Origin: an uncultured Pelagibacteraceae bacterium
GTDB taxonomy: Bacteria > Pseudomonadota > Alphaproteobacteria > Pelagibacterales > Pelagibacteraceae
NCBI GenBank assembly: GCA_902571955.1
Contig: CACGDZ010000002.1
Coordinates: 1 to 64,000, forward strand
Reading direction: 5' to 3'
Length of the DNA stretch: 64,000 bases
Position 1 is the stretch's first letter. Each line of letters starts with the position of its first letter. The translations under genes and the position numbers were made by a program. The notes under the pieces were generated by a model. It was not told the origin of the DNA. It saw only the letters and a program-made list of their open reading frames with translations, and did not search any database. Of this stretch, positions 21,226 through 46,981 are shown one piece after another.

Positions 21226-22917
21226 CTATTTTTTTATACTTTCGAGTGTTTTAAAAAAATCTGATGTAAATGATTTAGTATCAAACAGTGGGCTACTAAT
21301 TGCTTTATCATATGTACTTTTTCTTAAATCTATTAAAATATCATTTTTTTCAGAAAGCTCTTTAGCCTTCAAAACATATTCATTTTCATTTTTAGCTGAT
21401 AACCAATTAATATCCAAATTTTTATTTATTGACTCTCCACATCTTGAGTGAAAATTATATCCCTTCATAGTCAAAACTGGTACACCCATCCATATAGCCT
21501 CAAAGGAAGTTGTTACTCCTGTATGTGGGAAGGTATCTAATGCAAGATCAATTTTTCTATACAAACTCATATGATCTTTAAAATTTTTTTTATAAGACTC
21601 AAACTCAACAGAGTCTAAGATATTTTCTTTTTTAAATTTTTGTATTAGTAAAGTCTGTGATTTCAAATTTGATGTTTTTAGTATTAACTTTGAGCCCTTT
21701 ACTGATTTAATTATTTTAGACCAAGTATAAATAACAGAGTCATTAATTTTACTAAAATTATTAAAAGATCCAAAAGTGATATAACGATTTTTTATAAACG
21801 GAGATTCCGTAAAAGATCTTTGTAAATTGATGCCTGAATGACAGTTCCATATTTTTGGCAAATAAATAATTTTTTCTTTATACATATTTTTTTCATTCTC
21901 AAAAATTAGATTTTTATCAGCTAAAATGTAATCCATTTCCTCTACCCCTGTTGTATTACAATATCCACACCAAAGAATTTGGATGGGTGCTAATCTATTT
22001 TTAATTAGTGAAAGTCGACTTTTTGATGTAACCCCCATTAAATCAATCAAGATATCATTTTTATCTTTCCTAATTAAATTTACTGCATCTTCATCAGACA
22101 AATGATCTATATAAATTGATTTATCGACACTTTTTATAAATTCTTCTGTAGTGTCATCCCCTTGGGATTTCATGTGGTTAAAATATAAGTTTATTGAAAT
22201 TTTATTTTTATCATAATTGTCGGTAATAGTTTTTAAAAAATAAGTTATTGAGTGTTTTGTTTTTATATCTGATGATAAAAAACCGATTTGCATTTTATAA
22301 TTTGTATTATGAGAAATTGGAACTAAATTTTGGTCACTATACTTTTTTAAATTTTTGTCTAGAATTTTACCATAATCAAGAAACTGTTGTTGAGTCCAAT
22401 TTTTAAAGAACAAGTTATGGTACATCAAAGAACAAATTGTTGATGGTCTAAATTTTTTTCTTCTGATTAATTCTTCTAAATAAAACTTGACTTTTTGGAT
22501 ATCTACTAATCTTTTGTAAATTCTAATTATTGCTAAAGTAACCAATTCGTCATTTAAAAAGTAATTTTCCTTCTCATTAAAAATATGCAAAGCTTGATTA
22601 AAATAATCAAAAGCTTTCTCAATATTTAAACTTTTTTTTTCTAAGTCATAAAGGTCAGCAGAGGCATTCACAAAATTTCTAAATGCTTGTGAAGATATTT
22701 CGGGTTTTTTTTCTTTTAAATATACAGTTTTAAAATTCTCAATTGCCAGCGCTATATCCTTGGTAGTTCTTTCTTTTTGTAAAAGTCGAGATACACCTAA
22801 TAAGTTTATTACAGAAAGATTTTTTTGACTTTCTGATAACTCATATTCAATAATATAAATTAATTCAGAATATTTTTTCTCTTTGAAAAGATTTAATAGA
22901 TCAACATTTTTTTCCAC
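21226..22917 (-). CDS. SPINDLY/OGT-type glycosyltransferase (GT41), copy A
   Basis: The 563-aa protein has an N-terminal helical, TPR-like region (about residues 1-200) and a C-terminal O-GlcNAc-transferase-type catalytic region. Recognised blocks are IGFLSSDIKTKHSITYF, DILIDLMGVTSKSR, APIQILWCGYCNTTG, MDYILADKN, ITFGSFNNFSKIND and LDTFPHTGVTTSFEAIW. A second, related protein follows upstream. Such enzymes add GlcNAc or other sugars to Ser/Thr of proteins in other bacteria, but the target here is unknown. The pair sits between mnmE and rho. Confidence 0.87.
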   Translation of the reverse strand: MEKNVDLLNLFKEKKYSELIYIIEYELSESQKNLSVINLLGVSRLLQKERTTKDIALAIENFKTVYLKEKKPEISSQAFRNFVNASADLYDLEKKSLNIEKAFDYFNQALHIFNEKENYFLNDELVTLAIIRIYKRLVDIQKVKFYLEELIRRKKFRPSTICSLMYHNLFFKNWTQQQFLDYGKILDKNLKKYSDQNLVPISHNTNYKMQIGFLSSDIKTKHSITYFLKTITDNYDKNKISINLYFNHMKSQGDDTTEEFIKSVDKSIYIDHLSDEDAVNLIRKDKNDILIDLMGVTSKSRLSLIKNRLAPIQILWCGYCNTTGVEEMDYILADKNLIFENEKNMYKEKIIYLPKIWNCHSGINLQRSFTESPFIKNRYITFGSFNNFSKINDSVIYTWSKIIKSVKGSKLILKTSNLKSQTLLIQKFKKENILDSVEFESYKKNFKDHMSLYRKIDLALDTFPHTGVTTSFEAIWMGVPVLTMKGYNFHSRCGESINKNLDINWLSAKNENEYVLKAKELSEKNDILIDLRKSTYDKAISSPLFDTKSFTSDFFKTLESIKK

Positions 22918-22986: not shown

Positions 22987-24690
22987 TTATATTTGTTTAT
23001 GATTTTTATAAACACTCAACAATGTTTCATTAAAATTTTTTGAAAATTTTTTTGTGTCAAATAGTGATGAGGACAATATGTTGCTATATAGATCTTTTCT
23101 TATATTTTCTAATTTATCTATATTTTTAGATAAAAAAATTGCCTTAGAAATATACTCTTGAAAATTATTTGCTATTAAAAAATTATGATTAGAATTTTTA
23201 ATAATACTCTGACCACATCTTGATAAAAAATTGTTTCCTTTTAAAACAAGGACCGGAACATTCATCCATAAAGCTTCGAAAGTTGTTGTAACACCGTTGT
23301 ATGGAAATGTATCTAAACATAAATCTATTTTTTTATAAAGCTCCAAATGATCTTGATGTCTTAAAAAATCAATTTTATTATAAATATTTATTCTATTATG
23401 TACGCCATAAAATTTAAATTTATCCATAAGAATATCCTCATCACAATAATTAGAAGATTTTAATATTAAATGTGAATTACTAATACTTTTTAAAATTTTT
23501 GACCATGTTTCAATTGTTTCATCAGATATTTTCATAAAATTATTTAAAGAACCAAATGTAAACTTTTTTTTTTCTAGGTAAGGTAATTTATTAAATTGTC
23601 TGTTGTAAGAAAAGCCAGAATGTGCATTCCATATATCTGGTAAATTAATTATTTTTTCTGAATATAAATTATATTCACTTTCATAAATCAGGTTTTGATC
23701 TGCAAATAAATAATCTACATTATCCATGCCTGTAGTATTACAGTAAGCTAACCATGATATTTGAATTGGTGCTACTCTAGAATTAAAAATTTCCAACCTT
23801 TTTGAATTTGTATGTCCTACTAGATCAAACAATATATTTATTTTTTTATTTTGGATATAATCAACTAATTCTTGATTGTTTAAATCTTGCAAATCATGCC
23901 ATTGGTCTACTAATGGTCTTAATTTGTTATTATTTAAACTCTTTTCATTTTTTTTGTTTAATGAAAAAATAGAAATATAAAATTTTGTTTTATCAAGATA
24001 TTTAATTGTGTCATTTATGAAATTGGTTATTGAATGATTATTTAAAGGATCGCAACTTACAAATCCAAGATTTATTCTTGAGTTTTCTGAATTTTCAAAA
24101 TTATCTACTTCATTAACACTCAGTTTTTTAAAAAAGTGTGAACTATTCTTTGTAATTTTAAAGATATCTTTTTGTGTCCACTCAAAATAGTTGTTAATTA
24201 TGAAAATTGATTGTCCTATTATATCCTTTGAACTGTCAGATTTATTTAAAACTTTTATAATAATTTTTTTTAACTCTTTTTTATCTAATAGGTATAAAAA
24301 CAAATTTATACCACTTTGTATAAATTCATTGTCTTTACCAAAATAGTTTTCAGCTTCTAAATAAAAGTCTTTTGAAATTTTTAGGAATTTTTTGAATTCT
24401 TTGGAGATATTTGTCGATTTAATAGAAACAATAACTAAATTTTTTATTGCGTTAAGACCATGAATTGTTTTTTTTTCTTTTTTGTAAGCAGTTTCAAAGC
24501 AATTTAAAGATTTATAAAAATCATCTATAGTTGGGTTTTTTTTTAAATAATATGATGATCCCAGTAAATTAATAAGACCAGAAGGACATTCTTTAAATTT
24601 TGTAAATTTTTCTGTAAAGTCAATGACTTCCTCATATTTTTTTTGTTGATATAAGATTTTGATTTTATTCTTAACTTCTTCACTTATCAT
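22987..24690 (-). CDS. SPINDLY/OGT-type glycosyltransferase (GT41), copy B
   Basis: This 567-aa paralogue of the adjacent downstream gene has the same layout: an N-terminal TPR-like helical half and a C-terminal GT41 core with LGFVSCDPLNNHSITNF, NILFDLVGHTNSKR, APIQISWLAYCNTTGMD, FTFGSLNNFMKISDE and LDTFPYNGVTTTFEALW. The two copies are clearly diverged, so the duplication is old. Both share CNTTG where typical OGTs have PGTTG. About 69 bp separate the genes; no transposase is seen. Confidence 0.87.
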   Translation of the reverse strand: MISEEVKNKIKILYQQKKYEEVIDFTEKFTKFKECPSGLINLLGSSYYLKKNPTIDDFYKSLNCFETAYKKEKKTIHGLNAIKNLVIVSIKSTNISKEFKKFLKISKDFYLEAENYFGKDNEFIQSGINLFLYLLDKKELKKIIIKVLNKSDSSKDIIGQSIFIINNYFEWTQKDIFKITKNSSHFFKKLSVNEVDNFENSENSRINLGFVSCDPLNNHSITNFINDTIKYLDKTKFYISIFSLNKKNEKSLNNNKLRPLVDQWHDLQDLNNQELVDYIQNKKINILFDLVGHTNSKRLEIFNSRVAPIQISWLAYCNTTGMDNVDYLFADQNLIYESEYNLYSEKIINLPDIWNAHSGFSYNRQFNKLPYLEKKKFTFGSLNNFMKISDETIETWSKILKSISNSHLILKSSNYCDEDILMDKFKFYGVHNRINIYNKIDFLRHQDHLELYKKIDLCLDTFPYNGVTTTFEALWMNVPVLVLKGNNFLSRCGQSIIKNSNHNFLIANNFQEYISKAIFLSKNIDKLENIRKDLYSNILSSSLFDTKKFSKNFNETLLSVYKNHKQI

Positions 24691-27498: not shown

Positions 27499-28500
27499 TT
27501 AATAATTTTTTACAATCTTAATTAAATTTTTAACCATTTCTGGATTAGTATCGGGCAAAATACCGTGTCCAAGATTAAATATATATGGATGATTTTTAAA
27601 AATTTCTAGATATTTTAGGGCTTCTTTCTTTAAATTTACATAATCGGTTAGAAGGATTTTTGGATCTAAACCACCTTGAACAGGTATTTTGATATCATCT
27701 AATATTTTTTTTGGATCAACATTATAATCTATGCTAATAGCATCAGGTTTGACAATATTACAGAATTCTTTGTAGTTTTTAATTTCTCTAGGAAAGCAAA
27801 TGACTGGCACTTTTAAAGATTTAACATAATTTACTAAGTTTAAGGTTGGAGCATAGACATAATTTGGTAAATCTTTTTCATCTAATAAACCTGCCCAACT
27901 ATCAAAGATTTGAATTATATTTGCACCATAATCAATTTGATTTTTGATGTGTATTTTAAGAAATTTTTCAATAATCAGTAAAATTCTATTTATTAAAAAT
28001 TCATCTTTAAAAAAATCCTTTTTTAAATTTTTTTTTGGTGATTGTTGATTAATCATGTAAACCAATAATGTCCAAGGAGCGCCTACAAATCCAATCGTAT
28101 TTTTTTCCTTTAAAATATTGCTTGTGCTAACCTTTTTTATTGCCTTGTATATGCGATGTATTTTTTGCACAAAATCTATTTCATCGATCTTTATGACTTC
28201 ATTAAGATTTAATTCACCAAGTTTTGGACCAAAATTTTTTTCAAATGCTACTTTTTGACCCAAACCATATGGCAACATTAAGATGTCCGAAAATATTATT
28301 GCAGCATCCAGATCAAATCTTTTTAATGGCTGTAAAGTTATCTCTGATGCTAAATTATCATTTAGACATAAATTAATGAAATCTGGATTTTGTTTTCTGA
28401 TTTCCCTAAATTCTGGCAAATATCTTCCTGCTTGCCTCATAATCCATATTGGATTTAGATTGGTATCATTATTTATTAATACTTTATTTAAGGGTTTCAT
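27499..28500 (-). CDS. hemE: Uroporphyrinogen decarboxylase
   Basis: HemE decarboxylates uroporphyrinogen III to coproporphyrinogen III. It has 333 aa. PIWIMRQAGRYLPEFREIR is the N-terminal substrate-binding signature, with the catalytic Asp in IIFSDILMLPYGLG, and IFDSWAGLL and NLGHGILPDTNPE are also diagnostic. It flanks the predicted origin on the left, as hemE does in Caulobacter and Rickettsia. Confidence 0.98.
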   Translation of the reverse strand: MKPLNKVLINNDTNLNPIWIMRQAGRYLPEFREIRKQNPDFINLCLNDNLASEITLQPLKRFDLDAAIIFSDILMLPYGLGQKVAFEKNFGPKLGELNLNEVIKIDEIDFVQKIHRIYKAIKKVSTSNILKEKNTIGFVGAPWTLLVYMINQQSPKKNLKKDFFKDEFLINRILLIIEKFLKIHIKNQIDYGANIIQIFDSWAGLLDEKDLPNYVYAPTLNLVNYVKSLKVPVICFPREIKNYKEFCNIVKPDAISIDYNVDPKKILDDIKIPVQGGLDPKILLTDYVNLKKEALKYLEIFKNHPYIFNLGHGILPDTNPEMVKNLIKIVKNY

Positions 28501-28538
28501 ATATATATTTAAATAATTATTGTAGTTGTAATATATCC

Positions 28539-28547
28539 TGTGAATAA
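28539..28547 (+). promoter_or_regulatory. DnaA box 1
   Basis: TGTGAATAA, the reverse complement of TTATTCACA, matches the bacterial DnaA-box consensus TTATNCACA without mismatch. Confidence 0.7.
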
Positions 28548-28571
28548 AGGTGATTAATTTTTGTAAACATA

Positions 28572-28580
28572 ATATTCACA
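28572..28580 (-). promoter_or_regulatory. DnaA box 2
   Basis: ATATTCACA on the plus strand (TGTGAATAT on the minus strand) differs from TTATNCACA at the first base only. It is in the opposite orientation to boxes 1 and 3. Confidence 0.55.
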
Positions 28581-28645
28581 CTTTAATAACATCATAACAA
28601 AATAAAATTGTTTAAAATGAAGCCTTTTTTAGTTTTCTTAAGTAT

Positions 28646-28654
28646 TGTGAATAG
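28646..28654 (+). promoter_or_regulatory. DnaA box 3
   Basis: TGTGAATAG keeps the 8-base core shared with boxes 1 and 2 and differs from the consensus only at the last base. A weaker candidate, TTATTAACA at 28752-28760, has one mismatch in the core. Confidence 0.55.
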
Positions 28655-28769
28655 TTTGTGCCCATTTATTAATAATGTTAATAAAAACCATATTTTACAA
28701 GCTTAATTAAAAAAAAATTAAATTGAGTAATTTTATTAAAATAATACAAATTTATTAACAATTTTATTC

Positions 28770-29597
28770 ATGAACAATACATATCAAATTTACTTAATAT
28801 CTGACTCAACGGGTGAAACCCTAGATAGAATATTTCTTGCTTTAAAAGCCCAATTTTTAAATACAGAATACAAAGTACATTCTTATTCTTTTACAAGAAC
28901 AGAAAACCAAATATTAAAAATCTTAGAGGACGCAAAAAAAAATAAAAATTCAATTATTTTGTATACAATAGTTGATAACAGTTTAGCAAAATATTTAGCC
29001 AATGTAAGTGCGGACAAAAATATTCCATGTTTTGGGGTATTAGGAAATTTAATTTTGAATTTTTCAAAAATTCTTAATCAAAAGGCAACACATGAACCAA
29101 GTGGGCAACACATTTTAAATGAAGAGTATTATGATAGAATAGAGGCAATTCAATTTACAATGAATCATGATGACGGAAATTTGATTAATGAAATAGATAA
29201 ATCAGACATAATTTTAATTGGGGTTAGCAGAACAAGCAAGACACCAACTTCAATTTATCTAGCTAACAAAGGTTTTAAGACATCAAATATCCCACTGGTA
29301 AACGAAAACTCTCTACCTGAAAAGTTAAAACAGAACCCTGGATTAACTTGTGTAATTGGTTTAAGCACAGAACCAGAAAGATTAGTTGATTTAAGAAAGA
29401 ATAGAATGAATTCTTTAAAAGAAAGAGAAAATTTTAAATATACAGATTTAGAAAATATTAAAAAAGAAGTTTTGGATGCTAAAAAAACTTTTCAAAAATA
29501 CAAATGGCCTCTTATAGACGTTACAAGAAAATCAGTGGAAGAAACAGCAGCATCTATAATTAAAATTCACGAAATTTATTTAAATAATGTTAAATAA
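28770..29597 (+). CDS. ppsR: Pyruvate,water dikinase / PPDK regulatory kinase-phosphotransferase (DUF299)
   Basis: The 275-aa protein belongs to the bifunctional ADP-dependent kinase/Pi-dependent pyrophosphorylase family that switches PEP synthase or pyruvate phosphate dikinase. Seen are YLISDSTGETLDRI at the start, the P-loop-like IILIGVSRTSKTPTSIYLA, and DVTRKSVEETAASI near the end. Its position right of the origin equals that of the gene beside oriC in Rickettsia. Neither ppsA nor ppdK is in the window. It overlaps maf by 11 bases. Confidence 0.93.
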   Translation: MNNTYQIYLISDSTGETLDRIFLALKAQFLNTEYKVHSYSFTRTENQILKILEDAKKNKNSIILYTIVDNSLAKYLANVSADKNIPCFGVLGNLILNFSKILNQKATHEPSGQHILNEEYYDRIEAIQFTMNHDDGNLINEIDKSDIILIGVSRTSKTPTSIYLANKGFKTSNIPLVNENSLPEKLKQNPGLTCVIGLSTEPERLVDLRKNRMNSLKERENFKYTDLENIKKEVLDAKKTFQKYKWPLIDVTRKSVEETAASIIKIHEIYLNNVK

Positions 29598-46644: not shown

Positions 46645-46981
46645 TTTGGCAAATAAAAAATGTGTACCATGTGAAGGAAACATCCCCCCTTTTAACATCG
46701 ATGAAATCCATGAATTTTTAAAAAAAGTTGATGGTTGGGATGTTACGGAGGATAAAATTGACGGTTTTCATTTAACTAAAAGTTTTAAATTCGACAACTT
46801 TTTAAAAAGTCAAGAATTTGTAAATAAAGTTGGAGAAATAGCTGAAACCGAAGGCCATCACCCTGATTTGTGGTTTGGATGGGGTTATGCGAGAATAAAA
46901 ATATTCACACATGCAATTAAAGGCTTAGCGGAAAGTGATTTTATTCTTGCCGCAAAAATAGATAAAATATCTAATGCCTAA
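46637..46981 (+). CDS. phhB: Pterin-4a-carbinolamine dehydratase
   Basis: The 114-aa protein has the family signature VNKVGEIAETEGHHPDL with the His-His pair of the active site, followed by WFGWGYARIKIFTHAIKGL. PCD recycles the pterin cofactor of aromatic amino-acid hydroxylases and may also act in molybdopterin or folate routes. No phenylalanine hydroxylase is in the window. An N-terminal CVPCEG is an odd cysteine pair. It converges with purH, overlapping by 11 bases. Confidence 0.93.
   Translation: MSDLANKKCVPCEGNIPPFNIDEIHEFLKKVDGWDVTEDKIDGFHLTKSFKFDNFLKSQEFVNKVGEIAETEGHHPDLWFGWGYARIKIFTHAIKGLAESDFILAAKIDKISNA

Follow-up and report, generated by a model that had tools for sequence, protein, structure and literature searches.

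The window analyzed here, a 64-kb stretch of a Pelagibacteraceae assembly (G000) that comprises 1,153,212 bp in 31 contigs and is 88% complete, contains a 269-bp intergenic gap with a GC content of 17%. Matches to PF01208 and PF03618 bear out the initial annotation in that this gap lies between hemE and a DUF299 gene, ppsR, and the gene order around it is rho-hemJ-hemH-hemE / ppsR-maf-aroE-coaE (Table 1). The genes at 15.6-28.5 kb had been described as all on the minus strand, which is correct for the open reading frames there except for one plus-strand frame of 109 amino acids inside rho; those from 28.77 kb onwards, described as mostly plus, begin with a run on the plus strand but then occur on both strands. 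In Rfam, the region 28300-28900 gave no match up to E = 1. The flanking pair hemE/COG1806 is the one reported for the mapped Caulobacter origin and for the Rickettsia prowazekii origin (PMC1914354), and the proposed parallel with the placement of these two origins is upheld.

Table 1. Features of the hemE/ppsR gap and its flanks, in window coordinates.
Feature	Position	Strand	Basis or remark
Predicted oriC (hemE/ppsR gap)	28501..28769	.	gap 255-297 bp in 83/90 family loci, own included
hemE (uroporphyrinogen decarboxylase), flank	27499..28500	-	PF01208, E=3.6e-83
ppsR/DUF299/COG1806 gene, flank	28770..29597	+	PF03618, E=6.6e-88
A/T-only stretch beside the trinucleotides	28501..28519	.	sequence; would likely lie in the melting region
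Five in-phase trinucleotides TTG TAG TTG TAA TAT, DnaA-trio-like	28520..28534	+	family pattern TA(G/T)
Box 1, TGTGAATAA (TTATTCACA on minus)	28539..28547	+	most conserved element; family form TGTKAATAA
Weak tandem second box, AGGTGATTA	28548..28556	+	abuts box 1; family base preferences
Facing box 1 of array, TTGTAAACA	28561..28569	+	family alignment, box scan
Facing box 2 of array, ATATTCACA (copy 2 of the repeated word)	28572..28580	+	11 bp from preceding box
Facing box 3 of array, TTAATAACA	28583..28591	+	11 bp from preceding box; less conserved
Copy 3 of the repeated word, TGTGAATAG	28646..28654	+	TGTGGATT in 71/79 close relatives (best 80 of 542)
Box TTATTAACA	28676..28684	-	box scan
Box TTATTAACA right ahead of ppsR start codon	28752..28760	+	box scan

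Of 147 genomes of the family, 118 yielded ppsR, and 90 of these loci, including that of the window, were used. In 83 of these, a divergent hemE lies ahead of ppsR (median gap length 278 bp, sd 7.9); the remaining seven, all from genus g9, do not have hemE beside ppsR. Counted from box 1 without gaps, the 83 loci share an ordered core. Upstream of box 1, T predominates at -19, -16, -13, -10 and -7 (84, 90, 78, 95 and 89% of the gaps) and is followed one base later by A (75, 69, 59, 83 and 84%) and then mostly by G or T. These in-phase trinucleotides span -19 to -5, with 4 bp between the last of them and box 1; if only the part at -19 to -11 is considered, the distance to the box is 10 bp. Box 1 begins with T (93%), G (100%), T (100%), T/G, A (84%), A (70%) and T (94%), and a weak copy of the box pattern follows at +9 to +17 (G at +10 in 69%, T at +15 in 94% and A at +17 in 75% of the 83 gaps). 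Facing boxes of the form TTWTnMACA start at +22 and +33, and a third, starting at +44, stands out in the window but is blurred across the family; in the window the three start at 28561, 28572 and 28583, i.e. at a pitch of 11 bp.

The published search for DnaA-trios requires three consecutive trinucleotides, and the trio-box spacing is reported to peak at 10-13 bp without this being a rule (PMC8287927). In the window, three of the five trinucleotides have a central A, only two of them consecutive, and a run of at least three consecutive NAN at most 16 bp from a box is absent. Across the family, at least three consecutive TAN at the fixed place occur in 47 of the 83 gaps versus 1% of base-shuffled upstream pieces (14% of base shuffles if NAN is counted in the fixed phase). 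Counted in any phase, at least three consecutive NAN at most 16 bp from box 1 are found in 59 of the 83 gaps, which is not above shuffles (60%).

The initial annotation drew attention to three copies of the word TGTGAATA, and these are present at 28539-28546 (plus strand), 28573-28580 (minus) and 28646-28653 (plus). A fourth copy in the window lies at 46902 (minus), and the word occurs 45 times in the assembly, with no pair within 1 kb outside the gap. The claim that such a repeat is improbable is correct insofar as TGTGAATA is rare in shuffled sequence (106 of 5000 dinucleotide-shuffled versions of the gap contain it), but the triple count alone is unusual only at the 1-2% level: in a post hoc count, some 8-mer with at least two G/C reaches three copies in 50 of 5000 gap shuffles (1%) and, among 1275 real 269-bp windows, in 30 (2.4%), three of which overlap the gap. 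By itself, the triple repeat is suggestive and not decisive; its count matters because the word has the form of a DnaA box and the arrangement surrounding it is conserved.

Close relatives were taken as the best 80 of 542 confirmed loci, 79 of which have hemE in reach. These best 80 of 542 are named as Pelagibacteraceae (78), Pelagibacterales (1) and Candidatus Pelagibacter ubique (1), so that the SAR11 label holds. In the 79 relatives drawn from the best 80 of 542, the gap is 266-270 bp long and the conservation predicted for all three copies is seen for two of them: copy 1 is TGTGAATA in 78 and copy 2 is exact in 54, with at least 17 of the other 25 retaining TATNNACA, but copy 3 is exact in none (Table 1). 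The mean fraction of the majority base in the same 79 (best 80 of 542) is 1.00 in box 1, 0.97 at 28519-28533, 0.87 at 28593-28645 and 0.92 over the whole gap. A block at 28606-28624 around AATTGTTTAAAATGAAGC is almost invariant in these 79 relatives (best 80 of 542); it is not an exact DnaA box and may be a promoter.

The gap had also been described as smaller and poorer in boxes than the Caulobacter origin. It is shorter, the origins of both Caulobacter and Rickettsia being reported as >400 bp (PMC1914354), but it is rich in boxes. Exact matches to TTATNMACA number 3 in the gap of the window versus 0.12 expected (3 or more in none of 2000 base shuffles), and matches with at most one mismatch number 11 versus 2.49 expected (11 being reached in one of 2000 shuffles). 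Summed over the 83 family gaps, TTATNMACA occurs 197 times versus 14.4 in shuffles, a 14-fold excess, TTATTAACA 113 times versus 5.2, TTATNCACA 30 times versus 2.2 and TTATCCACA 5 times versus 0.2. The count for TTATTAACA makes this the commoner SAR11 box; TGTGAATA, put forward as the box core, is a local form in this part of the genus. Inspection of the letters of the DnaA C-termini revealed that RDHTT is retained in 12 of 12, and no simple change in the DnaA protein therefore explains TTATTAACA. The DNA-binding signature reads FSNRDHTT in the DnaA of this genus and FSGRDHTT or FTGRDHTT in the three other genera sampled (L092-L103). For other proteins, the CtrA-like spacing TTAA-N7-TTAA occurs 37 times in the 83 gaps versus 20.9 in shuffles (once in the gap of the window), the IHF consensus 20 times versus 6.1 (absent from the gap of the window), and GANTC, the CcrM target, only twice versus 11.3. 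This scarcity of GANTC is of interest against the report that SAR11 carries a CcrM homologue (PMC3973325).

Fifty-six loci of other genera served to train a 62-bp profile of the core (-20 to +41), and in the 64-kb window the best match to this profile is the site in the gap (33.7 bits versus 12.6 for the next match). With the same training, the gap also comes first in the sampled stretches of three further genomes, G026 (33.5 versus 15.4 bits), G063 (32.0 versus 14.7) and G017 (24.5 versus 9.7); it does so as well in G040, with its own genus left out (41.3 versus 9.7), and in G009, whose genus is in no training row (33.5 versus 9.6). Of 12 control profiles made from segments of the gap, the nine that start at gap position 55 or beyond miss their own place in the window. 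A profile of the boxes without the trinucleotides is also at rank 1 in the window; profiles of the trinucleotides only and of box 1 only were dropped as not specific (ranks 4 and 32). Judged by clusters of exact TTATNMACA, the gap is densest in the window, G026, G063 and G009 and tied in G040, and is not singled out in the sampled stretches of G017. Some features of the gap are what chance repeats in an A/T-rich sequence would produce, namely the frequency with which some 8-mer reaches three copies in shuffles and real windows and the fact that copy 3 is not conserved as such. However, the conservation of the core already contradicts this reading: box 1 is exact in nearly all of the 79 close relatives from the best 80 of 542, TTATNMACA is in large excess over the 83 gaps, and the leave-genus-out profile recovers the site. 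We consider the probability of a chance explanation to be negligible.

Skew was sampled in 20-kb stretches that cover 33-38% of each of five single-contig genomes from three genera, with the remainder interpolated, and was analyzed with a model in which origin and terminus are half a genome apart. For GC skew, the model peaks at 341, 882, 1183, 342 and 160 kb in G026, G063, G017, G040 and G009, respectively, and ppsR lies at 335, 910, 1155, 359 and 141 kb, i.e. 6, 28, 28, 17 and 19 kb from the peak. Relative to the peak, the score in these genomes is 1.00, 0.96, 0.97, 0.98 and 0.96 at ppsR and 0.95, 0.79, 0.73, 0.75 and 0.58 at dnaA, so that GC skew prefers ppsR in all five. The initial annotation had predicted a minimum of the cumulative skew at the gap, and this is coarsely supported by the half-genome model in the five genomes but not throughout by the plain cumulative skew, which is noisy on sampled stretches: its minima are 18-32 kb from ppsR in G026 (367 kb), G063 (940 kb) and G009 (159 kb) and away from it in G017 (998 kb) and G040 (654 kb). 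AT skew peaks away from ppsR in G040 (646 kb) and G009 (436 kb). A regression of skew at fourfold sites with a strand term was weak, had an optimum other than ppsR in all five genomes (310 kb in G026, 1190 kb in G017 and distant in G063, G040 and G009) and was not used as support. Overall, the skew evidence for an origin at ppsR is supportive and not sharp. Two of the sampled stretches are low in G+C, i.e. L139 (G063:C1:1078448-1098447) with 16% and L112 (G026:C1:523505-543504) with 22%; nearly all other stretches of G063 and G026 have roughly 27-33%.

Alternatively, the origin could lie beside dnaA, an arrangement found in many bacteria, and the hemE/ppsR gap could be only a site at which DnaA regulates or is titrated. 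Whole-genome alignments of Arctic SAR11 are reported to start at DnaA (PMC12421898), and in G026 dnaA not only reaches 0.95 of the best GC-skew score but is marginally ahead of ppsR on AT skew (0.93 versus 0.92) and gene strand (0.97 versus 0.96); with scores this close, the two places are hardly resolved in this genome. In the other four genomes, however, ppsR clearly outscores dnaA on GC skew. Moreover, dnaA was found in 12 of 12 genomes, and over these 12 loci (50,550 bp, about 1.5 kb on each side) the 62-bp profile gave nothing above 10.8 bits. In the 11 single-contig genomes, dnaA and ppsR are separated by 60.4-72.4 kb; dnaA is located on the hemE side in eight of these and on the ppsR side in G005 (contig taken as circular), G009 and G022. 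This switching of side at a roughly kept distance is what inversions centred on a hemE/ppsR origin would give. Given these data, we regard an origin beside dnaA as very unlikely.

The seven g9 loci bear on a second alternative, in which the core would be a promoter or leader control element of hemE (or ppsR) that is bound by DnaA or another regulator. In the window, 19 bp separate the start of the core from the hemE start codon, and the ppsR start codon is immediately preceded by a TTATTAACA box; this box occupies the place expected for a ribosome-binding site, and a similar word is common thereabouts across the family. In the g9 locus with longer flanks (L224), the neighbor is rho, 353 bp before ppsR, and a comparable divergent start occurs 346-353 bp ahead of ppsR in all seven g9 loci. 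Yet the best core is 244-246 bp from the ppsR start in 7 of 7, versus 239-276 bp in the other 83 loci, and scores 23.5-35.7 bits in six and 9.7 bits in L064. The g9 loci (L224, L062-L065, L085, L087 and L089) are a natural test in which the core is separated from hemE. Together with the GC skew, which puts the origin at the hemE/ppsR gap, and with the similar layout in hemE/ppsR gaps of some other alphaproteobacteria described below, the kept distance argues against an element dedicated to hemE control, and we consider a core that serves only as a promoter or leader even less probable than an origin beside dnaA. Control of ppsR by the core is compatible with these observations, and the regulatory and origin roles may coexist.

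Combining genomic context, boxes, conserved core, profile and coarse GC skew, all of which support the reading of the initial annotation, we suggest that the hemE/ppsR gap is very probably the chromosomal replication origin (oriC). The sequence itself shows the position of the gap, its boxes, the phase of the trinucleotides, the conservation of the core, the uniqueness of the site among the stretches scanned and a coarse signal in the skew. The strongest evidence for the predicted origin is the conserved trinucleotide-plus-box core, which did not figure in the initial annotation. By analogy with other bacteria, the gap would be bound by DnaA, a filament would grow, the DNA would melt and helicases would be loaded. 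In this scenario, DnaA would bind box 1 (28539-28547) and its weak tandem neighbor as well as the facing array, the boxes of which, 11 bp apart, would be on the same side of the helix. Starting at box 1, a filament of DnaA would grow leftward onto the trinucleotides at 28520-28534, holding one strand, and would open the A/T-only DNA beside hemE, after which helicases would be loaded and two forks would depart. The further boxes at 28646, 28676 and 28752 may load or anchor extra DnaA.

In the basal unwinding system, the trinucleotides precede the box in the 5' to 3' direction of this strand, and those of the window are placed likewise. This trio-plus-box system is reported for 1755 of 2070 predicted origins, and the SAR11 core resembles it in having phased trinucleotides near a DnaA box that is followed by a weaker one in tandem (PMC8287927). 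Unlike in the basal unwinding system, the window has only two consecutive trinucleotides with a central A, the row comes as close as 4 bp to the box, and the boxes are followed by a facing array at 11-bp pitch. In Escherichia coli oriC, the unwinding side is followed by a TGTGGATAA-type box and then by boxes in the opposite direction; the SAR11 core is like it in layout but smaller and beside different genes. That the boxes of E. coli oriC point in opposite directions is also reported in PMC10797057. In terms of flanks, the predicted origin is of the known alphaproteobacterial hemE/COG1806 kind: Caulobacter crescentus Cori and R. prowazekii oriC are reported to be flanked by this pair of genes (PMC1914354), and they likewise consist of an A/T-rich gap that contains DnaA boxes. 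Besides being shorter than these two origins, the SAR11 gaps differ from them in being depleted of GANTC, in the number of CtrA-like spacings (37 versus 20.9) and in having TTATTAACA as the commonest box.

A survey at the level of the class recovered ppsR from 104 of 153 genomes; 28 loci were taken, and 4 of them were left out as having no hemE match. Of the other 24 alphaproteobacterial loci, 10 have a run of five trinucleotides that reaches p 0.05 on the expected strand, and none has one on the other strand; in 14 of the 24, this level is not reached on the expected strand. In several of the outgroup loci the run is followed by TGTGGATAA- or GGGGATTA-type words, and in several other alphaproteobacteria GGGGATTA-type words are found at a place like that of the tandem second box. 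Based on these runs and box words, the SAR11 core may represent a more widespread layout that has drifted toward A/T. More tentatively, and with slightly more doubt than confidence, we propose that much of the Alphaproteobacteria could share the trinucleotide-plus-box unwinding core as the constant center of the hemE/ppsR origin and that SAR11 could have a pared-down, A/T-drifted form of it, in which DnaA acts mainly on TTATTAACA, the trinucleotides begin only 4 bp from box 1 and the boxes of the facing array are spaced exactly at the helical pitch.

The oriC of HTCC1062 is reported to have been identified manually (PMC4033161); among the titles and abstract openings of the papers listed, we found no description of this core in SAR11, and DoriC predictions may exist. 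The tool GRiD is reported to place the origin at dnaA (PMC7852909), which in SAR11 would be 60-72 kb off. An origin defined by sequence, together with a profile that finds it, would mend such dnaA-based placement, and the small predicted SAR11 origin offers a system for testing how DnaA acts. Elsewhere in the window, the two adjacent genes at 21226-22917 and 22987-24690 each match PF13844 (glycosyl transferase family 41).
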